From: a virus
Virus record (IMG/VR): IMGVR_UViG_3300035670_001401
Span: 1 to 21,359 of that record
Length of the DNA: 21,359 bases
Strand: one strand, 5' to 3'
Shown piece after piece: positions 5,746 through 19,528 of the stretch. The notes beneath the pieces are model-generated. The model saw only the letters and a program-made list of their open reading frames with translations. It did no database searches and was not told where the DNA came from. Made by a program: the position numbers and the translations under genes. Positions within the stretch are counted from its first letter, which is position 1; every line of letters begins with the position of its first letter.

Positions 5746-6528
5746 ATGTCTATTTATACGCAACCAAAATTAATATATTACGTCTATGCTTTTCTTAGAA
5801 AAGATGGTACGCCTTATTATATAGGTAAAGGTAAAGGCAATAGGTTATTTAAAAAAAGAATAAATTCAATAAATAGGCCGAAAGACATATCAAGAATAGT
5901 TGTTTGCGAATCAAATTTAACAGAACTTGGTGCGTTTGCATTAGAAAGAAGATTAATTCGCTGGCATGGTCGTAAAGATAATGGAACTGGCATTTTAAGA
6001 AACTTAACAGATGGTGGTGAAGGTTCTTCAGGTTTGAGACATTCAGATAAAACTAAAAAGAAAATGTCCGATTCACAGAAAAATAGAGTAACAGATGATT
6101 TTAGATCATTGATATCAAGCATAAGAAAAGGCAAAAAATTATCTGAAGAAACAAAGAAAAAAATATCTGATGCAAAAAAAGGAATAAAACTTGCAAATGA
6201 TACAAAAAGAAAATTGTCTAGTGCGAATAAAGGTAAAAAACACACCGAAGAAACTAAGCAAAAAATGAAAGCTGCATATAAATATTCTGAAAAACGAACA
6301 CAAATTAGCGACGAAACACGAAAAAAACTTTCTATTTGTAAAAAAGGTAAGTCACTTAGTAAAGAACATAAAGAAAAAATGTCAGCGTCCCATAAAGGCA
6401 AAACGCTTAGTGAAGAACACAAAAGAAATCTTTCTATTGTCAATAAAGGCAAGAAACTTTCAGAAGAATCCATAAGAAAAAGAACAGAAACAAGAAGAGC
6501 AAAAAAATGGCAGCTGAAAATTTCGTAG
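5746..6528 (+). CDS. GIY-YIG homing endonuclease with NUMOD3 DNA-binding repeats
   Basis: The product is 260 residues. Residues 10-90 form a GIY-YIG nuclease domain: YYVYAFL (11-17) and [12 protein letters not shown] (22-33), with Arg33, a helix containing Glu67 ([11 protein letters not shown]) and Asn86 as candidates for the usual active-site residues. From residue 98 to the end there are about eight lysine-rich modules of the form [16 protein letters not shown], the NUMOD3 DNA-binding motif of homing endonucleases. It cuts a specific DNA site to spread its own gene. The start has AGGAG nine bases upstream. Its last 22 bases overlap the 5' end of the next fibre gene, so its C-terminal KKWQLKIS is read from that gene in another frame. 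The very Lys-rich, A-rich composition differs from its neighbours. No intron core was recognised, so it is called freestanding. Confidence 0.9.
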
Positions 6529-7704: not shown

Positions 7705-8085
7705 ATGAACTCAAAATCACTTCTTTTATCAAAACCAAACAGATTGTGGAGACCAGCAATGGCCTGGCTATACTTCACAATCTGTCTATTTGATTTCATA
7801 ATTGGACCAATCATCTGGTCTATTATTCAACAAGATGCAAAAACAATTACACAATGGATTCCTCTTACTTCCAGAGGCGGAGGACTATTCCATATGGCAA
7901 TGATGGCAATTGTTGGTATTACTGCATGGGGTAGAACCCAAGAAAAAATTAATATGTCACCTTTTGGTATGGAAATGCAAAGAGATTCATTTGAGATGTC
8001 ATCGTTAGATAGACCAGCAGAAGTTAAAAAACAACAATTTCCAGATGAACCACCTCCAACAATAAAAAGAAGGCAAAATAAATGA
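7705..8085 (+). CDS. Putative holin-like membrane protein, first of pair
   Basis: The product is 126 residues. A basic N-terminus (NRLWRP, 12-17) precedes two likely membrane segments at about 18-42 (AMAWLYFTICLFDFIIGPII) and 58-76 (GGGLFHMAMMAIVGITAWGR), followed by a polar tail rich in Pro, Lys and Arg. The pattern RPAMAW, then CLFDFxIxP, then GGLxHxAMxAIVGITAWxRxQEK matches small phage membrane proteins often annotated as holins, which permeabilise the inner membrane at lysis. AGGA lies upstream. The end overlaps the next start by four bases (ATGA), so the two genes are coupled and may form one lysis unit. Holin activity is inferred from topology and family likeness. Confidence 0.65.
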   Translation: MNSKSLLLSKPNRLWRPAMAWLYFTICLFDFIIGPIIWSIIQQDAKTITQWIPLTSRGGGLFHMAMMAIVGITAWGRTQEKINMSPFGMEMQRDSFEMSSLDRPAEVKKQQFPDEPPPTIKRRQNK

Positions 8086-8576
8086 TAGCTATATTGTCAA
8101 CAATCTTCGGTGTTCTGGGAGGAATTATTCCAAACATCGTTAAAATACTAGAAATGAGGACGTCGTATAAGTATGAACTGGAGCTTACAAAGATTAAGTT
8201 GGAAGCAGCGGCTCGTGGATTGGATATGCAATTTGCTACTGAGGCTGTTAAGGCCGAGGCAAACGAGAGTGTATCTGTTCGACAACATGATACTTCTATT
8301 GTTTATAATGACACTCTTAACACACTTAGAGCTTCTATTCGACCTCTCCTTACGTACTTTTTTTTCTTCATGTTTTGCGGTATTAAAATCGCTGCTGCAT
8401 CTCTAATGTTTCAAAATGGATATAATGGAATCGAAGTGCTTAACGCAGTTTGGGATATTCATACAGTCGCAATCTTTGGTGCCGTGATGGGGTTTTGGTT
8501 CGGGTCACGATCAATGTATTACCTCAACGACAAGTATAATATAAATACTAGAACGTTTATTCCTAATAAAAAATAA
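8082..8576 (+). CDS. Putative 3TM holin, second of pair
   Basis: The product is 164 residues. Likely membrane segments are 3-20 (AILSTIFGVLGGIIPNIV), 88-110 (PLLTYFFFFMFCGIKIAAAS region) and 126-145 (IHTVAIFGAVMGFWFGSRSM region), separated by a charged helical stretch at 25-85. The WDIHTVAIFGAVMGFWFGSR ending and RPLLTY are characteristic of phage proteins grouped as 3TM holins of the gene-transfer-release type (PF11351-like). It would act in the inner membrane to time lysis. The start overlaps the previous stop. A spanin pair is not seen nearby. The GH108 muramidase encoded at 14686 is the only peptidoglycan hydrolase in the window. Confidence 0.65.
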   Translation: MIAILSTIFGVLGGIIPNIVKILEMRTSYKYELELTKIKLEAAARGLDMQFATEAVKAEANESVSVRQHDTSIVYNDTLNTLRASIRPLLTYFFFFMFCGIKIAAASLMFQNGYNGIEVLNAVWDIHTVAIFGAVMGFWFGSRSMYYLNDKYNINTRTFIPNKK

Positions 8577-8772: not shown

Positions 8773-8780
8773 TATAAATA
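8773..8780 (+). promoter_or_regulatory. Consensus T4-type late promoter
   Basis: TATAAATA matches the T4 late promoter exactly, lies directly after the terminator and 32 bases before the gp13 start. It probably drives the neck-terminase-cargo operon from 8812 onward, using the phage late sigma factor and sliding clamp as in T4. Confidence 0.8.
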
Positions 8781-8811
8781 ATCAAAAACTACTCCGAACA
8801 AAGGATTGAAA

Positions 8812-9552
8812 ATGGCAATATCAACAACAAGAGATCAATTCAAAGAACGTTGCTTGCGACGATTGGGTAAACCTGTTGTTGAAGTAAATGTCACAGAAGA
8901 ACAAGTCGATGACTGCGTTGATGATGCCATCAGTTATTGGAATGATTATCACTTTGATGGTACTGAAAAACAATACTACAAGTACCAAGTAACGGCCGAA
9001 GATATTACAAACAAATATATTACAATGCCCGATAACATTATCGGGGTGATTCACATATTTCCAATTAGTAGCTCTTTCGGAGCTGGTGATCTATTCAATA
9101 TTAAATACCAAATCAGCTTGAATGACCTTTACACCTTAACATCAGTTTCTCTTGTTCCATATTACATGGCGTTCCAACACATTAGACTAATTGAAGAAAT
9201 TCTTGTTGGACAACAACCAATTCGCTACAATCGTCATCGTAATAGACTGCACATTGATGGCGATTGGAGTCGAATCAATGTTGGAGATTATATAATTGTT
9301 GAAGCTTATCAAGTAATCGATCCAGATACTTTTGTGGATGTATGGAAAGATCGTTGGTTGTTACAATATTGCACTGCATTGATTAAACGTCAATGGGGTA
9401 ATAATTTGAAAAAATATAGTGGAATGGTATTACCTGGTGGTATACAATTTAACGGTCAGCAAACATATGATGAAGCAGTTGAAGAGATTCGAATGCTCGA
9501 GCAAGAAATGATTACTAATTACTCTATTCCTGTTTCAGATTTTGTAGGATAA
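8812..9552 (+). CDS. 13: Neck protein gp13
   Basis: The product is 246 residues if started at the ATG at 8812, which has AAGGA (8801-8805) six bases upstream; the TTG at 8806 in the same frame is less likely. The opening MAISTTRDQFKERCLRRLGKP, acidic EEQVDDCVDDAISYWNDYHFD, central YKYQVTAEDI and late DIWK/DVWKDRWLLQYCTALIKRQWGNN-type segments match the gp13 neck family of T4-like phages. gp13 and gp14 form the neck that closes the filled head and joins it to the tail. It is somewhat shorter than T4 gp13 (about 309 residues). The gene order 13-14-15-16-17 is kept, although cargo genes now separate 13 from 14. Confidence 0.9.
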   Translation: MAISTTRDQFKERCLRRLGKPVVEVNVTEEQVDDCVDDAISYWNDYHFDGTEKQYYKYQVTAEDITNKYITMPDNIIGVIHIFPISSSFGAGDLFNIKYQISLNDLYTLTSVSLVPYYMAFQHIRLIEEILVGQQPIRYNRHRNRLHIDGDWSRINVGDYIIVEAYQVIDPDTFVDVWKDRWLLQYCTALIKRQWGNNLKKYSGMVLPGGIQFNGQQTYDEAVEEIRMLEQEMITNYSIPVSDFVG

Positions 9553-9556
9553 TAAT

Positions 9557-10561
9557 ATGTTAACATTCAAACAACTTCAAACATTAATTGAATCAAAAGA
9601 AATAAATTTTGAGTATGGTAAGCATGATTATGATCCTAAGAGCGCATTATCTATTGGCAAATCTGGCCCACATGATATACAAGTAGAATATACACACAAA
9701 TATAAAGACGAAGATGATAATGAATCTCCAGAAGGGCATTATTCAGTAGATTTTAAAACAGATTCAAAATATACTGGAACAGGAACTAACATACCTCCAG
9801 AACATAAAATTGGGTTGATGAATCATCTAAAAGATTCATTAAACTCATTTATTGAAACAAATAAACCGAAATTATTAAGGTTTGGTGTTACTTCATCGGA
9901 TCCAAACGCTTTGCAAAAAATACATCAATATCATAAATTTGCCAAAATTTTAGCTTCCAAACATAATGGTGTTGTTGAGACCAATGAACATGATAATGAG
10001 GCTAGAGTGAGATTTAATAATAAGATTGATGAATCTTATCAATACAAAGCTAATGAAGGTGAATCTAAAGTATTATATCATGCAACGCACATACCTTTTA
10101 ATGGGAATAAATTTAGACCATTTAGTCACTTTGGAACAAAAGATGCCGCCAGATCAAGAGCATCTAGAATAAATGAACAAAATCCAAAAGCAAAAAGTTT
10201 TGATACGTATAGTACAAGATTGAGACTTGGCACAACAGTTGATATACCAGATCCAATTGAACATTCTCCAAAGAAAATTGCTACGTTGTTACATAAACAT
10301 GGGCATATCGATAAAAATGATTACAGAAAAATTATTAATGCGATGAGTTCTCATGATGATGACAAAAACAAATATAAAGAACTTGCTTCTCATTTAAGAG
10401 ACAAAGGTATTCATACAATATCATACACAAATGAAGTAGAAGATCCAGGAAATAAAAGTTACATGATCACTCATCCAAACCAAGTTAGAGTATTAAAGAA
10501 AACTGAAGGTTCTAGCTTAAATATGGAAAGAGGTAAAAGAAAAACGGTATCTTTAGAATGA
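9557..10561 (+). CDS. Candidate capsid-packaged ADP-ribosyltransferase-like protein
   Basis: The product is 334 residues. The leader MLTFKQLQTLIE ends in Leu10-Ile-Glu12, a gp21-type cleavage signature. Residues about 36-155 form a domain paralogous to the 142-aa protein at 11499. A second (L/I)xE site, Ile157-Asp-Glu159, lies exactly between this and the C-terminal domain. Residues 172-313 read VLYHATH (172-178), HFGT (191-194) with Ala and Arg just after, a LRLG(T)TVDIPD strand (222-231), HTISYTNEVEDPGNKSYMI (286-304) and HPNQVRVL (306-313). That order (YHxT, FGT, YxNExE, SY, P-Q-hydrophobic-R) is seen in ADP-ribosyltransferase-like toxin domains, with His175 and Glu293 or Glu295 as candidate active-site residues. 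By analogy with T4 Alt it might be ejected with the DNA and modify a host protein. AGGA lies seven bases before the ATG. The ART call is by pattern only. Confidence 0.6.
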   Translation: MLTFKQLQTLIESKEINFEYGKHDYDPKSALSIGKSGPHDIQVEYTHKYKDEDDNESPEGHYSVDFKTDSKYTGTGTNIPPEHKIGLMNHLKDSLNSFIETNKPKLLRFGVTSSDPNALQKIHQYHKFAKILASKHNGVVETNEHDNEARVRFNNKIDESYQYKANEGESKVLYHATHIPFNGNKFRPFSHFGTKDAARSRASRINEQNPKAKSFDTYSTRLRLGTTVDIPDPIEHSPKKIATLLHKHGHIDKNDYRKIINAMSSHDDDKNKYKELASHLRDKGIHTISYTNEVEDPGNKSYMITHPNQVRVLKKTEGSSLNMERGKRKTVSLE

Positions 10562-11124
10562 AAACATTCAAACAATTTATTATTGAAATGCCTCAGGCAA
10601 GTGATAGTATATCAGATTACAAATTCTCAGATGGTGATTATGATCCAATCAAATCATCAGGGTTGGATACTTGGAATAATCAGAATCATGAACATTTAAG
10701 ATCTTATAATGGTCATGATTATTGGAAAAGCTCTGAATACAGTACAAATAGAGATAGCAATTTATATGATACAATACATGTTACTGATGCAAAAACTGGT
10801 CATGTAAAGTTTAAGATTAATGGTTCTGGTAATTCTATTAATGGAACTTTTATAGTGCATAATACAGAATCAAATAAAAAAAGAAATGAAAATTATTCAA
10901 ATGTGATAGCTAATCTAGTCAGAAATGATCATGTAAGAGAATGGCATTCAGATTTGAAACATTCTGAAGGATCAAAGATGGCATATCGTAGATTGATTGA
11001 TCAAAATAAAGATTTAAAAATGGAACATCAAGATTCTGATACTGGTATTAGATATCCGGTATCACCAGAAAATATTCATCAATTTGAAAATAAAACAGGA
11101 AGATTTATAGTTTCAAAGAGGTAA
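10558..11124 (+). CDS. Putative internal head protein, unknown function (paralog of 13694 gene)
   Basis: The product is 188 residues. Its leader MKTFKQFIIE has Ile8-x-Glu10, matching the T4 internal-protein capsid-targeting leader and the gp21 protease site. The mature part would start at Met11. Residues 72-145 (IHVTDAKTGHVKFKINGSG, then HVREWHSDLKHSEGSKMAYR) resemble the middle of the 202-aa protein at 13694 (WVHRKTGHVDFYMKTND and GIAVHDNQSKGAIRLHNRL). Both fit a phage pattern in which a (S)D, an invariant Ser-x-Gly and an amphipathic helix ending in Arg-Leu follow each other. No catalytic motif is assigned. ATGA overlaps the preceding stop, so the two cargo genes are coupled. Confidence 0.75.
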   Translation: MKTFKQFIIEMPQASDSISDYKFSDGDYDPIKSSGLDTWNNQNHEHLRSYNGHDYWKSSEYSTNRDSNLYDTIHVTDAKTGHVKFKINGSGNSINGTFIVHNTESNKKRNENYSNVIANLVRNDHVREWHSDLKHSEGSKMAYRRLIDQNKDLKMEHQDSDTGIRYPVSPENIHQFENKTGRFIVSKR

Positions 11125-11128
11125 AGAA

Positions 11129-11497
11129 ATGAAAACACTACTTCAATATATTCAAGAAAGATGCTGGAAAGGTTACAAACCAGTAAAAGGCAAAAAACCA
11201 TATTCAAAAGGTTCTTGTGAAAAAATTGATGAGGCTAAGCTTGATAAAAGTAAAATGAAATGTAATAAACCAAGAGCTCAGGCGCATGGCGACAAATCTC
11301 ATGTTGTTAAAGCGTGTTATGATGGCAAAGAAAAAATAATTCGATTTGGTCAAAAAGGTGTTAAAGGTTCGCCAAAAAAAGAAGGTGAATCGGAAGCGTA
11401 TGCAAATAGAAGAAGAAGATTTAAGTTACGTCATAAACAAAATATTGCAAAAGGCCCAAAGTCTGCCGCGTACTGGGCAAATAAGGTAAAATGGTAA
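11129..11497 (+). CDS. Small basic putative internal head protein
   Basis: The product is 122 residues and strongly basic. Leader MKTLLQYIQE has Ile8-x-Glu10, and a second gp21-type site occurs at Ile33-Asp-Glu35 before Ala36, so a linker peptide (RCWKGYKPVKGKKPYSKGSC) could be cut out. The remainder contains KCNKPRAQAHGDKSHVVKAC, IRFGQKGVKGSPKKE, ANRRRRFKLRHKQNIAKG and a C-terminal SAAYWANKVKW. This GQxGV, RRRxFKxRH, SAxYWAxxVKW pattern is a widespread phage protein family of unknown function, often without the leader. Conserved Cys and His residues and the many Arg/Lys residues suggest nucleic-acid binding, which would suit a protein stored with packed DNA. GAGGTAAAG upstream serves as ribosome binding site. 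Confidence 0.8.
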   Translation: MKTLLQYIQERCWKGYKPVKGKKPYSKGSCEKIDEAKLDKSKMKCNKPRAQAHGDKSHVVKACYDGKEKIIRFGQKGVKGSPKKEGESEAYANRRRRFKLRHKQNIAKGPKSAAYWANKVKW

Positions 11498-11954
11498 AAT
11501 GAAAACTTTCAGACAATTTATTGCAGAAACGACACAAAAAGTTGTACATGATAATGGCGATATAGATCATTCAACTATTGTTGGTAATCATCATGTCAAC
11601 GTTCGTTTTGCAAAAACACCTGGAGAACAATATCATATTTCTTTAAGAGTTAATGGAAAAACTGAAACTGACCAAGTATTATTACCTCATCATAAAGCAA
11701 GTATTTTTGATTTTGCCAAAAAGTCAGTTGATTCTTTTATTTCAACACATAAGCCAAAAGAAATTTATATGGTTGGTCATAGAACGGATAAAAGAAATTT
11801 ATTTAATAAGTTCACCGAAAGAATGGCAAAAAAACATTCTGGCGTCATGACAGGCGATAATTCGGCTAGATTTGATTGGGTTGGAAATGATCCTGTAGTT
11901 CAATTCCTAAAAAGGAATCAAAAATGAAAACTTTCAGACAATTTATTGCAGAAA
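11496..11954 (+). repeat. 34-bp direct repeat encoding two identical leaders
   Basis: Bases 11496-11529 and 11921-11954 are identical over 34 positions and cover the four bases through each ATG start and the whole decapeptide MKTFRQFIAE. The sequences before and after differ. The copy is therefore exactly a start-site plus leader cassette. Confidence 0.95.
11499..11927 (+). CDS. Putative internal head protein, paralog of ART-protein N-domain
   Basis: The product is 142 residues. Leader MKTFRQFIAE is the closest in the window to the T4 internal-protein leader (MKTYQEFIAE), with Ile8-x-Glu10. The remainder aligns with residues 40-153 of the 334-aa protein: HHVNVRF against HDIQVEY; LLPHHKASIFDFAKKSVDSF against IPPEHKIGLMNHLKDSLNSF; THKPKEI against TNKPKLL; and AKKHSGVMTGDNSARF against ASKHNGVVETNEHDNEARVRF. 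A His- and Lys-rich alpha/beta domain results, of a type common in T4-like phages, with no known activity. It could be a stand-alone partner of the ART-like protein. The stop overlaps the next start (ATGA). Confidence 0.75.
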   Translation: MKTFRQFIAETTQKVVHDNGDIDHSTIVGNHHVNVRFAKTPGEQYHISLRVNGKTETDQVLLPHHKASIFDFAKKSVDSFISTHKPKEIYMVGHRTDKRNLFNKFTERMAKKHSGVMTGDNSARFDWVGNDPVVQFLKRNQK

Positions 11955-12091
11955 TGAATGATAATGATACGGCAGAAATTCGTCGTATGTACATCAAATT
12001 AAAGAATCAAAAATCGTTAGATGATATGGAAAAACAAAAATTAAAAGTTCTCTCAAGTCATCCAAGTATTAAAGCTCTAGAAAGCGAATAA
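11924..12091 (+). CDS. 55-residue putative internal peptide with capsid leader
   Basis: The ATG overlaps the previous stop and TAA is at 12089-12091. The product is MKTFRQFIAE followed by MNDNDTAEIRRMYIKLKNQK and a further 25 residues (SLDDMEKQKLKVLSSHPSIK, then ALESE). The leader is identical in protein and DNA to that of the gene just upstream. After cleavage at Glu10 the mature peptide would be about 45 residues, helical and highly charged, similar in size and character to the small internal proteins of T4. It ends three bases before gp14. No function is recognised. Confidence 0.75.
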   Translation: MKTFRQFIAEMNDNDTAEIRRMYIKLKNQKSLDDMEKQKLKVLSSHPSIKALESE

Positions 12092-12094
12092 GAC

Positions 12095-12841
12095 ATGGTA
12101 ACTTCTCCATTCTTTAATAATTTTAGCAACTCAATGGAATCAGAACTGTTTGATAGTCTGATCGTTGAGTCTATTAAAATTTACGGCCAGGATATGTATT
12201 ATATTATTCGTACAGAGAATAATTACGATGGTATTTATGGAGAAGATGATGTTTCTTCATATGATAATGCATTATTAATTGAAATGTATATTAAGTCAGT
12301 TGAAGGATTTGGAGGCCAAGGCTCCTTCATGTCTAAGTTTGGACTTGAAATTAGAGATCAAGTAACATTCTCGGTAGCAAAACGTACTTTTGAAAATGAT
12401 ATAACAAACCAATTTGCTCATATCATTAGACCAAGAGAAGGTGATCTAATATACTTCCCATTGAATAAAAAATGTTTTGAAATTAAATACGTTGATGTAT
12501 TTCATATGTTCTATCCATTAGGATCATTGCATTTATACGATGCTCAATGTGAATTGTTTGAATACTCAAATGAGAAATTCAATACTGGGATTGCTGAAAT
12601 CGATCAATTGCAAAAGAATTACTCATTTAATACATATGATTATGGTATCAAAACAGAAGATGGTTTTGCTTTGAAAACAGAAAATGGTGTGATACTAACA
12701 ACAGATGAATACGAAGAAACGTTTGCTGAATTTGATCCATTAGCCGACAACGTCAGAATTGAACAAGAGTCAGCTAGAGATACTGCTAATTCGCTATTAG
12801 CATGGGATGAATCAAATCCTTTTGCTGAAAATAAATATTAA
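12095..12841 (+). CDS. 14: Neck protein gp14
   Basis: The product is 248 residues, close to the 256 of T4 gp14. It carries the family landmarks FFNNF near the start, LFDSLIVESIKIYGQDMYYI, IYGEDDVSSYDNA, SFMSKFGLEIRDQVTFSV and especially EGDLIYFPLNKKCFEIKYVD, which parallels the EGDLIYFP-FEI segment of T4 gp14. The C-terminal part has a KTEDG/KTENG repeat and DSNPF-like ESNPFAE ending. gp14 joins gp13 to form the neck that seals the head after packaging and to which whiskers attach. It follows the 55-aa peptide by three bases, without a strong ribosome binding site, so translation coupling is likely. Confidence 0.9.
   Translation: MVTSPFFNNFSNSMESELFDSLIVESIKIYGQDMYYIIRTENNYDGIYGEDDVSSYDNALLIEMYIKSVEGFGGQGSFMSKFGLEIRDQVTFSVAKRTFENDITNQFAHIIRPREGDLIYFPLNKKCFEIKYVDVFHMFYPLGSLHLYDAQCELFEYSNEKFNTGIAEIDQLQKNYSFNTYDYGIKTEDGFALKTENGVILTTDEYEETFAEFDPLADNVRIEQESARDTANSLLAWDESNPFAENKY
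12830..12837 (+). promoter_or_regulatory. Possible late promoter for gp15
   Basis: AATAAATA overlaps the last codons of gene 14 and lies 22 bases before the gp15 start. It differs from consensus at one base. The downstream AAAGAG near 12849 remains available for ribosome binding. Confidence 0.4.
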
Positions 12842-12859: not shown

Positions 12860-13684
12860 ATGTTTGGACATCAGACGTTCTATTTTTCTACAATAAGAAA
12901 AATGGTCGTATATATGGGAACGATATTAAACGATATTAATATTACGAGAACTGATAGTTCTGGTAGTACAACACACCTGATGCGTGTGCCTCTCCAGTAC
13001 GGACCCAAGGACAAAGAATTAGCTCGAATCAAAGCTGATCCTGAAATCCAAAGAGAAACTGCAATTACACTGCCTCGAATGTCTTTTGAAATGAGATCAA
13101 TGCAATATGATCCAACACGTAAGCTGAATACATTAGGTAGAATTGTTAGAAAAGACAACGACGATGCTAATAAGTTTCGTCGAATGTATAACCCGGTTCC
13201 TTATAATTTCCAATTCATCGTCAGCGTTTATGTAAAGAACATCGAAGATGGTACGAAGATTATTGAACAAATAATTCCATTCTTCACACCAGAATTTACT
13301 TCGACTGTTAATATAGTTCCAGAAATGGATATCTCAATTGACATTCCAATTGTATTAAATGATGTAACGATGGAAGATACTTATGAGGGCTCATTTGATG
13401 AAAACAGACTTGTTATATGGACATTAACGTTTACTGTTAAAGGTATGTTATTTGCTCCAATTGTTTCAAAACCAATTATTAAGTTTTCAAATACTGATTT
13501 CTATATTGGGAACACCGAGACTAGTAATACTTATGTGTCAGCAATTCAAGTAAAGCCTGGAATGGATAGTAATGGTAATCCAACAACTAATAATAGTATA
13601 ACTGTTAATACTAACATTATTGAAGTTGATGATACTTGGGGTTATATTACATTAACAGATTCTATCTATTTCTCAAACACATAA
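12860..13684 (+). CDS. 15: Tail sheath stabiliser/completion protein gp15
   Basis: The product is 274 residues, like T4 gp15 (272). The opening MFGHQTFYFSTIRKMVVYMG matches the T4 pattern MFG-YF-(S)FRR-LMG, and later features fit too: the RVPLQYGPKDKELARI segment, AITLPRMSFEM, YNPVPYNFQFIVSVYVKNIE, EQIIPFFTPEFTSTVN and VIWTLTFTVKGMLFAPI. gp15 caps the end of the tail tube and sheath as a hexamer and joins the tail to the neck. The first ATG is kept as the start because the family begins there; a downstream ATG (VVYMG) is the alternative. The C-terminal 45 residues are Asn/Thr rich. Confidence 0.92.
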   Translation: MFGHQTFYFSTIRKMVVYMGTILNDINITRTDSSGSTTHLMRVPLQYGPKDKELARIKADPEIQRETAITLPRMSFEMRSMQYDPTRKLNTLGRIVRKDNDDANKFRRMYNPVPYNFQFIVSVYVKNIEDGTKIIEQIIPFFTPEFTSTVNIVPEMDISIDIPIVLNDVTMEDTYEGSFDENRLVIWTLTFTVKGMLFAPIVSKPIIKFSNTDFYIGNTETSNTYVSAIQVKPGMDSNGNPTTNNSITVNTNIIEVDDTWGYITLTDSIYFSNT

Positions 13685-13693
13685 GAGGGTTGA

Positions 13694-14302
13694 ATGAAAA
13701 CTTTAAGACAGTTCATCAATGAAACATTTGCTAATCGAATGGGAACAGATTCAAAACTTCCCTCGGAAACAAGTATTGATGATCCAGGAATCAAGAACCA
13801 ATTTAAAAAAGCCAAGAAATATGATTCTAATTCATCAGATCATGTAATTTATCACGTTAAAGATAAAGATGGGTATAATCATCATATCTGGGTACATAGA
13901 AAAACCGGTCATGTTGATTTTTATATGAAAACAAATGATAAGCCAGGAAAATTACCAGATGAAAAGTTTCATAGTAATATCCTGATTCAAGGAAGAGCAA
14001 ATGGCCCATCAATGGGTATTACTGCATTCCATGACTTATGGAGTGGCAAGTTGGGTCATTATGGAATTGCTGTTCATGACAATCAATCAAAGGGTGCCAT
14101 CAGATTACATAATAGACTTCGCCAACATTTTGGCAAAAGAGCATTATATCATACATATAATCCAGAAACTGGAGAAGCAAAACATTTGACTCATGGCGTT
14201 GCAGCTAGTGGAAAAACGCCAGATGAATTGTTTGATGCAATACATAAAGTGCAGATTGTTGGAATGATGGCTCCAAAACATAGACCCCCTTTACCAAAAT
14301 GA
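13694..14302 (+). CDS. Putative internal head protein with capsid leader
   Basis: The product is 202 residues. Leader MKTLRQFINE has Ile8-x-Glu10. Residues 48-100 (HVIYHVKDKDGYNHHIWVHR, TGHVDFYMK) and 108-160 (GITAFHDLWSGKLGHYGIAV, HDNQSKGAIRLHNRL) are similar in layout to the 188-aa protein at 10558. His residues are abundant (about 20), and a C-terminal Pro-rich tail ends HRPPLPK. No enzyme family is recognised. GAGGG lies upstream of the ATG, and gp16 starts eight bases after the stop, placing a cargo gene between gp15 and gp16. Confidence 0.75.
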   Translation: MKTLRQFINETFANRMGTDSKLPSETSIDDPGIKNQFKKAKKYDSNSSDHVIYHVKDKDGYNHHIWVHRKTGHVDFYMKTNDKPGKLPDEKFHSNILIQGRANGPSMGITAFHDLWSGKLGHYGIAVHDNQSKGAIRLHNRLRQHFGKRALYHTYNPETGEAKHLTHGVAASGKTPDELFDAIHKVQIVGMMAPKHRPPLPK

Positions 14303-14309
14303 GAATTCA

Positions 14310-14699
14310 ATGAATGATGATAAGATTGCTGAAGCATTAGACCTGACTCCATTAATTCCTCAGAAGAAGGAATTGAAAATGATATCATCTGATGATGATT
14401 ATCAAATGGCAAAAGGTAATATGGAAAACGTTCTTGATGTTGGAACGAATGCTTTGTCCGAGCTTGCGTCAATGGCCAACTTGTCTCAGGATCCACGTGT
14501 GTATCGTGTATTAACTGAATTGATTTCTGCAATGACTACTGCAAACAAAGAATTGATGGATATTAAATTAAAACAAGTAAATATTGAGCAGAAACAAAAA
14601 AAAGAACAAACACCGCAGACAGTCAACCAAAACTTGTTTGTTGGATCGACAGCCGACTTAGTCAAAATATTAGAAAAAACTAAAAATGAAAACACTTAA
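14310..14699 (+). CDS. 16: Small terminase subunit gp16
   Basis: The product is 129 residues (T4 gp16 has 164). The order of features follows T4 gp16: an acidic N-terminus with LDLTPLIP, a DDYQMAKGNMENVLDVGTNA helix, PRVYRVLTELISAMTTANKE matching the T4 segment PRH-EVFATLMGQMTTTNRE, a charged Gln/Lys linker, and a closing NLFVGSTADLVKIL like T4 VFMGSPTELMDEI. It forms the ring that recognises concatemer DNA and regulates the large terminase. Its 3' end overlaps the next gene by 14 bases, so the muramidase gene is embedded between the two terminase genes. Confidence 0.92.
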   Translation: MNDDKIAEALDLTPLIPQKKELKMISSDDDYQMAKGNMENVLDVGTNALSELASMANLSQDPRVYRVLTELISAMTTANKELMDIKLKQVNIEQKQKKEQTPQTVNQNLFVGSTADLVKILEKTKNENT

Positions 14700-15279
14700 A
14701 AAACTGTTAGAAGAATTAGATTCAATGCCACCAGCGCACATTCAAATGGCTCCAAAGAAAAATGATGATATTGGCAATCTAATTAAATCATTGAATAAAC
14801 AAGATGAGATGACTAAATTTATCCATAAACACGTTATTGAACCACACAAGCAATTCACTGATTTTATTAAAAGAACATTTGATTATGAAGGAAAAGGTGG
14901 TGAAGTAACACATGATACTGGTGGATTAACCAAATATGGTATTAGCCAAAAATCTAATCCAGATGTTGATATCCATAATCTAACACCAGAAAAAGCTATG
15001 GATATCTATAAAGAAAGATATTACGATAAGTTAGGTCATCTTGGTAATTTCAGCAAAAAATCAAGAGCTATTATATATGATGCATCAGTTAATCATGGCC
15101 CAAATTTTGCAAAAAAATTAATGAAAAATGTTGGCAATGATCCAGATAAACTATTACAAGCCAGAAAAAATCATTATGATAGTTTAGTAAAAACCAATCC
15201 AGAAAAATATGGTATGTATCATAAAGGATGGATTAATAGATTAGATAGATTAAAACAAGACATTCAAGGTCTAGAATGA
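14686..15279 (+). CDS. GH108-like muramidase with capsid-targeting leader
   Basis: The product is 197 residues. The leader MKTLKKLLEE has Leu8-x-Glu10, the gp21-type signature in a slightly diverged form. Residues 57-120 show the GH108 N-acetylmuramidase signature: FIKRTFDYEGKGGEVTHDTG with Glu68 as the likely catalytic acid, DTGGLTKYGIS (77-87), LTPEKAMDIYKERYYDKLG (99-117). Residues 130-195 match the associated C-terminal region: IYDASVNHGPNFAKKLM and HKGWINRLDRL. It would cleave the peptidoglycan backbone. No signal peptide or membrane segment is seen, so it depends on a holin, on injection, or on virion placement. The ORF starts inside gene 16 and ends inside gene 17 (ATGA). It could be the ordinary endolysin, a head-packaged enzyme, or both. 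Confidence 0.8.
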   Translation: MKTLKKLLEELDSMPPAHIQMAPKKNDDIGNLIKSLNKQDEMTKFIHKHVIEPHKQFTDFIKRTFDYEGKGGEVTHDTGGLTKYGISQKSNPDVDIHNLTPEKAMDIYKERYYDKLGHLGNFSKKSRAIIYDASVNHGPNFAKKLMKNVGNDPDKLLQARKNHYDSLVKTNPEKYGMYHKGWINRLDRLKQDIQGLE

Positions 15280-16919
15280 ATAAACCAATTAATGGATATC
15301 GTGGATCGTCTACACTAAAAAAAGCAAATACTCCAATTCAATGGACTCCTGAATTGGTGCAAGAATTTGTTGCCTGTTCAAAAGATCCTATACATTTTGC
15401 TGAAAAGCATATGAAGATTGTTAACGTTGATTTAGGACTTATAACAATTCCTTTATATGACTATCAAAAAGAAATCGTTACTAGTGTATTAAATGAAAGG
15501 TATACCGTAGCTGAATGCTCGAGACAGTCTGGTAAAACAACTTCAATTTCGGTATTTGTTCTTTGGTATATAATTTTTAACCCAAACAAAACAGTTGCTA
15601 TTCTTGCAAACAAAGCAGAGACCGCAAGAGAAATCCTTGCACGTATTCAACTTGCGTTTGAACATCTTCCAAAATGGTTACAACAAGGTGTAATTGAATG
15701 GAACAAAGGTTCATTTGAATTAGAAAACGGGTCGAGAGTTCTTGCAGCAGCAACGTCTTCAAATAACATCCGTGGTTATGCAATCAATCTTCTAGTGATT
15801 GATGAGGCAGCGTTCATCGATAACTGGGATGAATTTTTCACATCAGTATTCCCAACAATTTCATCTGGTAAGTCTACTAAAATTGTTTTAATTTCAACAG
15901 TTAATGGATTGAATCATTTCTATAAGATCACTTCATTGGCCAGACAAGGTAAGAATAATTACAAGTTGATTTCTGTTCCATGGCAACGTGTTCCTGGAAG
16001 AGATGACAAGTGGAAACAAGACACTCTTGCAGCAATGAACTTTGATACTGATAAATTTGCTCAAGAGTTTGAAAATCAATATCTTGGTTCATCAGGTACA
16101 TTGATTGCTGGCTGGAAACTTCAACAATTGACTCCTCAAACACCAACGTTTGAAACATTAAATATTAAGCAATACTTCAAGCCTGAAAAAGGAAGAAATT
16201 ACGTTGGAATTGCCGACGTTTCCAGAGGTAAAGGACTAGATTATTCAGCATTACAAGTAATTGATGTTACTGAGATGCCTTACAGACAAGTATTGACCTA
16301 TCGAGATAACATGACCACTCCAGCAGACTTTGCTGAATTGGTCCATCGCATTGGCATTCAATATAACAATTGTGCAATATTAGTCGAAGTTAATGACATT
16401 GGTCAACAAGTAGCAGAGACGTTATATTTTGATTTTGAGTATTCTAATCTGTTATTTAGCGAGTCTGCTGGCAAGTCTGGAAAAAGAATAACACAAAGCT
16501 ATAAGTCTAATATTGCAACCGATAAGGGAATAAGAACAACAAAGACTGTAAAGTCTATTGGATGTTCGATGTTAAAGTTGTTGATTGAACAAGATCAATT
16601 AATTATTAATGATTATGAAACTATTAACGAATTATCTACATTCTCAAAAAAGAATCAGAGTTATCAAGCAGAGCCTGGATGCCATGATGATTTGGTGATG
16701 TGTTTAGTATTATTTGGTTATTTGTCTGAACAACCTTTCTTTAAACAATTGACTGATATTAATACTTTGATGAGATTGAAGGAGTTGGATCACGAACAAT
16801 TAGAGAATGAGTTGTTGCCATTTGGATTCATTGATGATGGAATATCAGATTCTGAATTTACTGATTTTGGTAGAGATCAATGGATGATTGTTGATCAAAA
16901 CTATATTTTTAATAAATAG
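15276..16919 (+). CDS. 17: Large terminase subunit gp17
   Basis: The product is 547 residues, near the 610 of T4 gp17. ATPase: Walker A-like SRQSGKTT (82-89), Walker B LLVIDEA (172-178, Asp176-Glu177) and coupling motif STVNGLNHFY (207-216), plus the family segment IEWNKGSFELENGS (140-153). Nuclease (RNase H fold): Asp314 in IADVSRGKGLDYSALQVID, Glu371 in LVEVNDIG and Asp471/Asp472 in CHDDLVM, the expected three acidic positions. GTSGTL-like GSSGTLIAGWKL (271-282) links the two domains. It powers DNA translocation into the head and cuts the concatemer. The final codons contain a late-promoter-like octamer for gene 18. Confidence 0.97.
   Translation: MNKPINGYRGSSTLKKANTPIQWTPELVQEFVACSKDPIHFAEKHMKIVNVDLGLITIPLYDYQKEIVTSVLNERYTVAECSRQSGKTTSISVFVLWYIIFNPNKTVAILANKAETAREILARIQLAFEHLPKWLQQGVIEWNKGSFELENGSRVLAAATSSNNIRGYAINLLVIDEAAFIDNWDEFFTSVFPTISSGKSTKIVLISTVNGLNHFYKITSLARQGKNNYKLISVPWQRVPGRDDKWKQDTLAAMNFDTDKFAQEFENQYLGSSGTLIAGWKLQQLTPQTPTFETLNIKQYFKPEKGRNYVGIADVSRGKGLDYSALQVIDVTEMPYRQVLTYRDNMTTPADFAELVHRIGIQYNNCAILVEVNDIGQQVAETLYFDFEYSNLLFSESAGKSGKRITQSYKSNIATDKGIRTTKTVKSIGCSMLKLLIEQDQLIINDYETINELSTFSKKNQSYQAEPGCHDDLVMCLVLFGYLSEQPFFKQLTDINTLMRLKELDHEQLENELLPFGFIDDGISDSEFTDFGRDQWMIVDQNYIFNK
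16911..16918 (+). promoter_or_regulatory. Probable late promoter for gp18
   Basis: AATAAATA (one difference from TATAAATA) overlaps the end of gene 17 and lies 47 bases before the sheath gene. The intervening leader has a strong AAAGGGAG (16951-16958) ribosome site seven bases... before the ATG region, as expected for a very highly expressed gene. Confidence 0.5.
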
Positions 16920-19492: not shown

Positions 19493-19528
19493 AATTGGTG
19501 TCTGTATAAATAGTTACAGACACCAATT
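19493..19528 (+). terminator. Perfect 14-bp hairpin between gp18 and gp19
   Basis: Arms AATTGGTGTCTGTA (19493-19506) and TACAGACACCAATT (19515-19528) are exact inverted complements around an 8-base loop. It lies 26 bases after the gp18 stop. Only three T follow closely (TTTC), so it is not a textbook Rho-independent terminator. It may reduce read-through, stabilise the 3' end of the sheath mRNA or insulate the two genes. It overlaps the late promoter at 19505. Confidence 0.75.
19505..19512 (+). promoter_or_regulatory. Consensus late promoter for gp19
   Basis: TATAAATA is an exact T4 late promoter match, 46 bases before the tube ATG. Its first two bases are the end of the left hairpin arm and the other six are in the loop, so transcripts starting here would carry only the right arm at most. 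Confidence 0.8.

Follow-up and report, generated by a model that had tools for sequence, protein, structure and literature searches.

The window, as we call the whole 21,359-nt stretch of viral DNA analyzed here, is a T4-like myovirus structural cluster that carries the neck, terminase, and tail genes from gp13 to gp20 (Table 1). gp17 lies at 15276-16919 and is followed by gp18, gp19, and the start of gp20; the genes from gp17 to gp20 were named based on gene order, our reading of the sequences, and their relatives. All between gp13 and gp17, six ORFs start with a short leader of one type, a capsid-targeting sequence (CTS) as explained below, and a seventh, orf334, has a weaker one. A T4-late-promoter-like motif, TATAAATA, precedes gp13, and the next match on the coding strand is found only at 19505; thus, the leader ORFs downstream of gp13 probably share one late transcript, as suggested by a motif whose count is weakly above chance.

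Elsewhere in the window, positions 124-2823 encode a protein of 899 aa that contains dozens of degenerate repeats of 17 aa (51 nt) and ends in a Peptidase_S74 chaperone; it is probably a tail fibre or adhesin. A 260-aa ORF with NUMOD3 motifs between tail-fibre-like genes (5746-6528) is likely a mobile endonuclease, and two consecutive ORFs (7705-8576) have weak, sub-threshold matches to one 3-TM holin family. The window has an uninterrupted large terminase gene; in two related loci (L004 4699-5370 and L005 4381-5052), this gene is split around an inserted ORF, which has a GIY-YIG endonuclease domain in L004 and looks alike in L005.

Table 1. Coordinates of features from the promoter-like motif to the gp16-gp17 junction of the window
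Feature	Position	Strand	Description	Basis
TATAAATA	8773..8780	+	T4-late-promoter-like, upstream of gp13	5 matches in window vs 2.3 expected: weak
gp13	8806..9552	+	Neck protein (head-tail adaptor)	
orf334	9557..10561	+	Leader-like start MLTFKQLQTLIE, weaker, outside the CTS pattern	Absent in L004, L060
orf188	10558..11124	+	CTS-type leader MKTFKQFIIE	Absent in L004, L060
orf122	11129..11497	+	CTS-type leader MKTLLQYIQE on conserved body	phrog_7595
ATGGTAA, left	11491..11497	+	Left edge of inserted two-ORF segment, end of orf122	
Leader copy 1	11496..11529	+	AAA + ATG...GAA + A, encodes MKTFRQFIAE	34-nt identity with copy 2
orf142	11499..11927	+	CTS leader + 132-aa body homologous to orf334 N-terminal domain	E about 1e-9
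Leader copy 2	11921..11954	+	Encodes MKTFRQFIAE	34-nt identity with copy 1
orf55	11924..12091	+	CTS leader + 45-aa body without relatives	Searches for relatives
ATGGTAA, right	12095..12101	+	Right edge of inserted two-ORF segment, start of gp14	
gp14	12095..12841	+	Neck protein	
gp15	12860..13684	+	Tail sheath stabiliser	
orf202	13694..14302	+	CTS-type leader MKTLRQFINE	Present in L004, L060
gp16	14310..14699	+	Small terminase	
orf197	14686..15279	+	Leader MKTLKKLLEE on GH108 endolysin-type body	Different body in L060 slot

Two adjacent ORFs with one leader

The initial annotation had noted that orf142 and orf55 are identical through start codon and decapeptide and then diverge at once. We confirmed this identity, which extends over 34 nt (11496-11529 and 11921-11954) with differing bases on both sides, and comprises 3 nt (AAA) 5' of the ATG and 31 nt from the ATG, i.e., the codons for MKTFRQFIAE and one further base. 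The start of orf55 overlaps the stop of orf142 as ATGA, and the ribosome-binding regions of the two ORFs are different. CTS starts often overlap the upstream stop in this way (in the window at 10558 and 11924), and the leader's own ATGA can therefore close the previous frame and couple translation.

The bodies behind the two leaders had been described as unrelated. This holds for the pair itself, since orf142 and orf55 showed no similarity outside the leader on comparison, but the orf142 body does have a relative within the window: it is homologous to residues ~55-150 of orf334 and is, judged by this homology, a paralogue of the orf334 N-terminal domain. Using single sequences and an orf142/orf334 alignment, we found no relatives of either body, or of the orf334 N-terminal domain beyond its orf142 paralogue, in viral contigs or annotated phages; from residue 1, orf55 has a weak match to a PHROG of the category "internal virion protein" (phrog_8765, E 0.048).

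Both ORFs are absent from the closest relatives, L004 (gp14 92% identical) and L060 (81%). In these, orf122 overlaps gp14 directly, and a single ATGGTAA forms the end of orf122 and the start of gp14. Because L004 and L060 lack both ORFs, the orf142/orf55 pair is probably a recent gain in the lineage of the window, which is the simplest reading.

A leader of the T4 capsid-targeting type

The internal head proteins of T4 are made with an N-terminal propeptide, the CTS, which directs them into the prohead core; residues 1-10 of IPIII are enough for head targeting, the propeptides of IPII and IPIII are identical, and the protease gp21 cuts the CTS off after L/I-x-E (PMC9026906). MKTFRQFIAE has 7 of 10 residues in common with T4 MKTYQEFIAE, with differences at positions 4, 5, and 6, of which Y/F is conservative, and has a cleavage-type motif, I-A-E, at positions 8-10. 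Based on its sequence, the leader fits the T4 CTS in length, N-terminal position, and pattern.

The T4 sequence also provides an exact precedent for the arrangement, and by this comparison the window pair belongs to the T4 capsid-targeting kind. Like orf142 and orf55, ipII and ipIII are adjacent small genes that start with a DNA-identical 10-codon leader ending in F-I-x-E and continue with different bodies; they have 47 nt in common, of which 15 precede the ATG and 32 start with it, and which encode MKTYQEFIAE. The two cases differ in that (i) the T4 pair lies near gene e and the window pair in the neck/terminase operon; (ii) the T4 repeat spans the ribosome-binding region, whereas the window repeat reaches only 3 nt upstream of the ATG; (iii) the ipII/ipIII bodies differ from those of orf142/orf55; and (iv) the window, unlike the T4 pair, has six CTS-type ORFs as well as orf334 with its leader-like start, all between gp13 and gp17.

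The genes from gp21 to gp23 fall outside the 21-kb window and were read in relatives only. A gp21-type protease is encoded in six related contigs, with a match to PF03420 (E 2e-41) in the phage G001, whose contig contains L060. In G001 gp23, QFLVE|T aligns to T4 FLTE (residues 62-65), directly before the start of mature T4 gp23, which comprises 456 of 521 aa. Thus, the protease site and the end of the leader have the form F-[IL]-x-E in common.

The repeat had been regarded as a cassette on two ORFs. The pair alone is identical, but related leaders start at 10558, 11129, 13694, and 14686, and these are identical at 18-25 of 30 nt among themselves and to the 34-nt pair. We built the pattern Mx[TSKNR][FLYI]xx[FLYIM][ILVM]xE on this leader type and applied it to the window and 58 gp14-anchored loci, where it matched 22 of 1301 early coding-strand ATGs, none of 2538 internal ATGs, and none of 1309 ATGs on the other strand. 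One leader type is found on unrelated bodies, with 94 distinct leader ORFs falling into 40 body families. The bodies behind such leaders elsewhere include glucosaminidase and acetyltransferase-like proteins and one HEAT-repeat protein. The latter, a 426-aa protein that starts with the CTS-like MLSFKQYILE (L153 6904-8184), is encoded just after the capsid genes.

Probable recent copying of the leader

Overall, we consider it very probable that the 34-nt repeat encodes a T4-type CTS with the sequence MKTFRQFIAE, which two neighbouring genes for accessory internal head proteins have in common, and that this tag is portable and was recently copied. The case for copying, which the initial annotation had proposed, was strengthened by the comparison with relatives. 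Neither ORF is present in L004 or L060. Moreover, orthologues of the window and L004 use the same codon at only ~58% of identical residues, while the two window leaders do so at 9/9, which argues that the copying occurred after that split. Finally, where unrelated bodies from different genomes follow one and the same decapeptide, only 2/100 pairs are identical at the DNA level.

To distinguish a leader kept as peptide from one kept as DNA, we compared codons across the 94 leader ORFs and 40 body families. The same codon was used with a frequency of 0.55 between genomes (0.52 expected) and 0.65 within genomes (0.55 expected), and, at synonymous sites, the orthologous leaders of the window, L004, and L060 vary in the same way as the remainder of their genes. 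The suggestion that synonymous sites in leaders might be unusually conserved is therefore not borne out between genomes; because synonymous codons are near random there, we conclude that what is maintained in the leader is mainly the peptide and not the DNA. Strong conversion between leaders, the other process that had been proposed, finds no support as a general one: the mean similarity of leaders on unrelated bodies is 21.6/30 within genomes and equally 21.6/30 between genomes, and the only exceptions among 68 within-genome pairs, i.e., the two that reach 29/30, are the window pair and a pair in L111. For pairs of at least 29/30, a Fisher test gave p about 0.02, a value that is indicative only because the within- and between-genome pair counts are non-independent. 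As synonymous codons are near random and leaders within a genome usually differ, the identity in the window points to recent copying rather than to a conserved DNA element.

It is very unlikely that orf142 and orf55 instead arose by tandem duplication of one internal-protein gene, with bodies that diverged beyond recognition, rather than by copying of the leader only. The two genes are adjacent and in the same orientation, as expected for a duplication, and in one related locus (L131) several paralogous CTS genes do lie side by side. However, the identity covers 9/9 codons and stops at codon 10-11, beyond which the bodies of 132 and 45 aa have no similarity; slow divergence would have scrambled the leader codons too. 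Moreover, the orf142 body matches orf334 and not orf55.

We regard as highly improbable the separate arrival of two cassettes that encode one peptide and whose codons agree through coincidence and a common codon bias. Decapeptides of this class are frequent, with 84 contig stretches matching the degenerate pattern. Based on window codon usage and given the decapeptide, the chance of all nine variable codons agreeing is about 0.0024 for one pair; with all pairs in the window considered, it may reach a few per cent, nine codons being few. Against separate arrival, DNA identity is as rare between genomes as described above, and the exact 30-nt leader was not found in any other viral contig searched.

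We give least credence, and very little, to the leader being a conserved DNA or RNA element (a translation enhancer, coupling signal, or recombination site) with an incidental peptide, and rejected it based on the synonymous-site test: the identity is one of DNA and begins 3 nt ahead of the ATG, and the block common to the T4 genes takes in the ribosome-binding region, but the peptide pattern is kept across 40 body families with near-random codons, orthologous leaders vary like their genes, the two window ORFs have different ribosome-binding regions, and the pattern is confined to ORF starts.

Exchange of leaders and bodies

We also searched related phages for leader swaps onto different bodies, the check that had been proposed, and found three cases. 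First, in the slot between gp16 and gp17, an MKTL leader overlaps the end of gp16 in both the window and L060, but the bodies differ, the window having one of the GH108 type and L060 one of 313 aa with no named function; a GH108 body is found behind MKTFKQFLKE in L008, and L004 has none. Second, orf122-family bodies in the window, L005, and L008 have different leaders (MKTLLQYIQE, MKTFKEYIEE, or MLTFSQFLSE). Third, the second of two adjacent CTS genes in L111 (4774-5615) has the leader of the first gene at 29/30 nt, while in L081, L121, and L138 the same two-gene arrangement has a distinct leader on the second gene. The L111 leader is consistent with overwriting; because the body of the second gene is itself more diverged, the whole gene may have been replaced instead. 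Altogether, the three cases support that the leader is portable. GH108 endolysin-type proteins occur with a CTS-like leader in the window (14686-15279) and L008 (12250-12882), and one encoded upstream of gp13 in L029 (8139-8651) starts without such a leader.

Recombination between the two repeats of the window would remove 425 nt, which is exactly orf142, and leave orf55 intact. Homology of 2-10 bp reportedly suffices for recombination in T4 (PMC9391042), and 34 bp would therefore be ample.

For orf142 and orf55, we infer the following course, which extends from the direction of copying to packaging, cleavage, injection, and a counter-defence role of the bodies. As a portable tag, the leader would have come with the pair when it entered between orf122 and gp14; once the lineage had parted from the nearest known relative, recombination would have put a copy of one leader at the start of the adjacent ORF, either added to it or overwriting it. 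Expression of the neck/terminase operon late in infection would yield both proteins, which the decapeptide would then dock in the prohead scaffolding core. The gp21-type prohead protease would then cut after FIAE, freeing the bodies inside the head to be injected with the DNA. The T4 proteins IPI, IPII, and IPIII counter host defences (PMC12373910, PMC9391042) and, by analogy, the bodies likely have an injected counter-defence role. We assign no function to the bodies because their AlphaFold models are poor, with a mean pLDDT of 41 for orf334 and 63 for orf142, and fold searches with these models gave nothing significant in the PDB or a viral library. A GNAT-like succession of helices and strands was considered for the orf142 model but is not claimed.

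According to Repoila et al. 1994, as cited in PMC12373910 and PMC3012670, T-even internal-protein loci have a conserved signal sequence and variable bodies. On this account, those loci resemble the window in their conserved leader, plastic cargo, and gene gain and loss between relatives; the window differs from them in host and lineage, and in having orphan domains and a body of the GH108 endolysin type among its cargo. Arbiol et al. in 2010 reportedly described mobile regulatory cassettes of T4-type phages. Going by that title, such cassettes resemble the window repeat as short repeats that accompany accessory ORFs and can mediate shuffling; they differ in being regulatory, whereas the window repeat is the coding sequence of a protein sorting tag.

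The initial annotation further suggested that such a leader shows how a phage can recruit new cargo. This fits our data; however, the idea has already been published for the T4 CTS (PMC9026906), and ipII/ipIII are an exact precedent of the window pair. What we add is how far the leader extends among uncultured T4-like phages, together with one recent, dated event and the reassortment in relatives. Tentatively, the CTS-coding DNA in these phages might be an exon-like module, in which repeats let recombination swap, delete, and re-tag bodies in frame, making the head-gene operon an expandable array of injected effectors. With its ten residues, the start tag offers an easy way to search sequences for proteins that are probably packaged in the heads of T4-like phages and injected on infection. 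The dozens of orphan bodies behind the tag in the window and its relatives are candidates for injected counter-defence or host-takeover proteins, and these genomes give datable examples of the movement of a tag between bodies.
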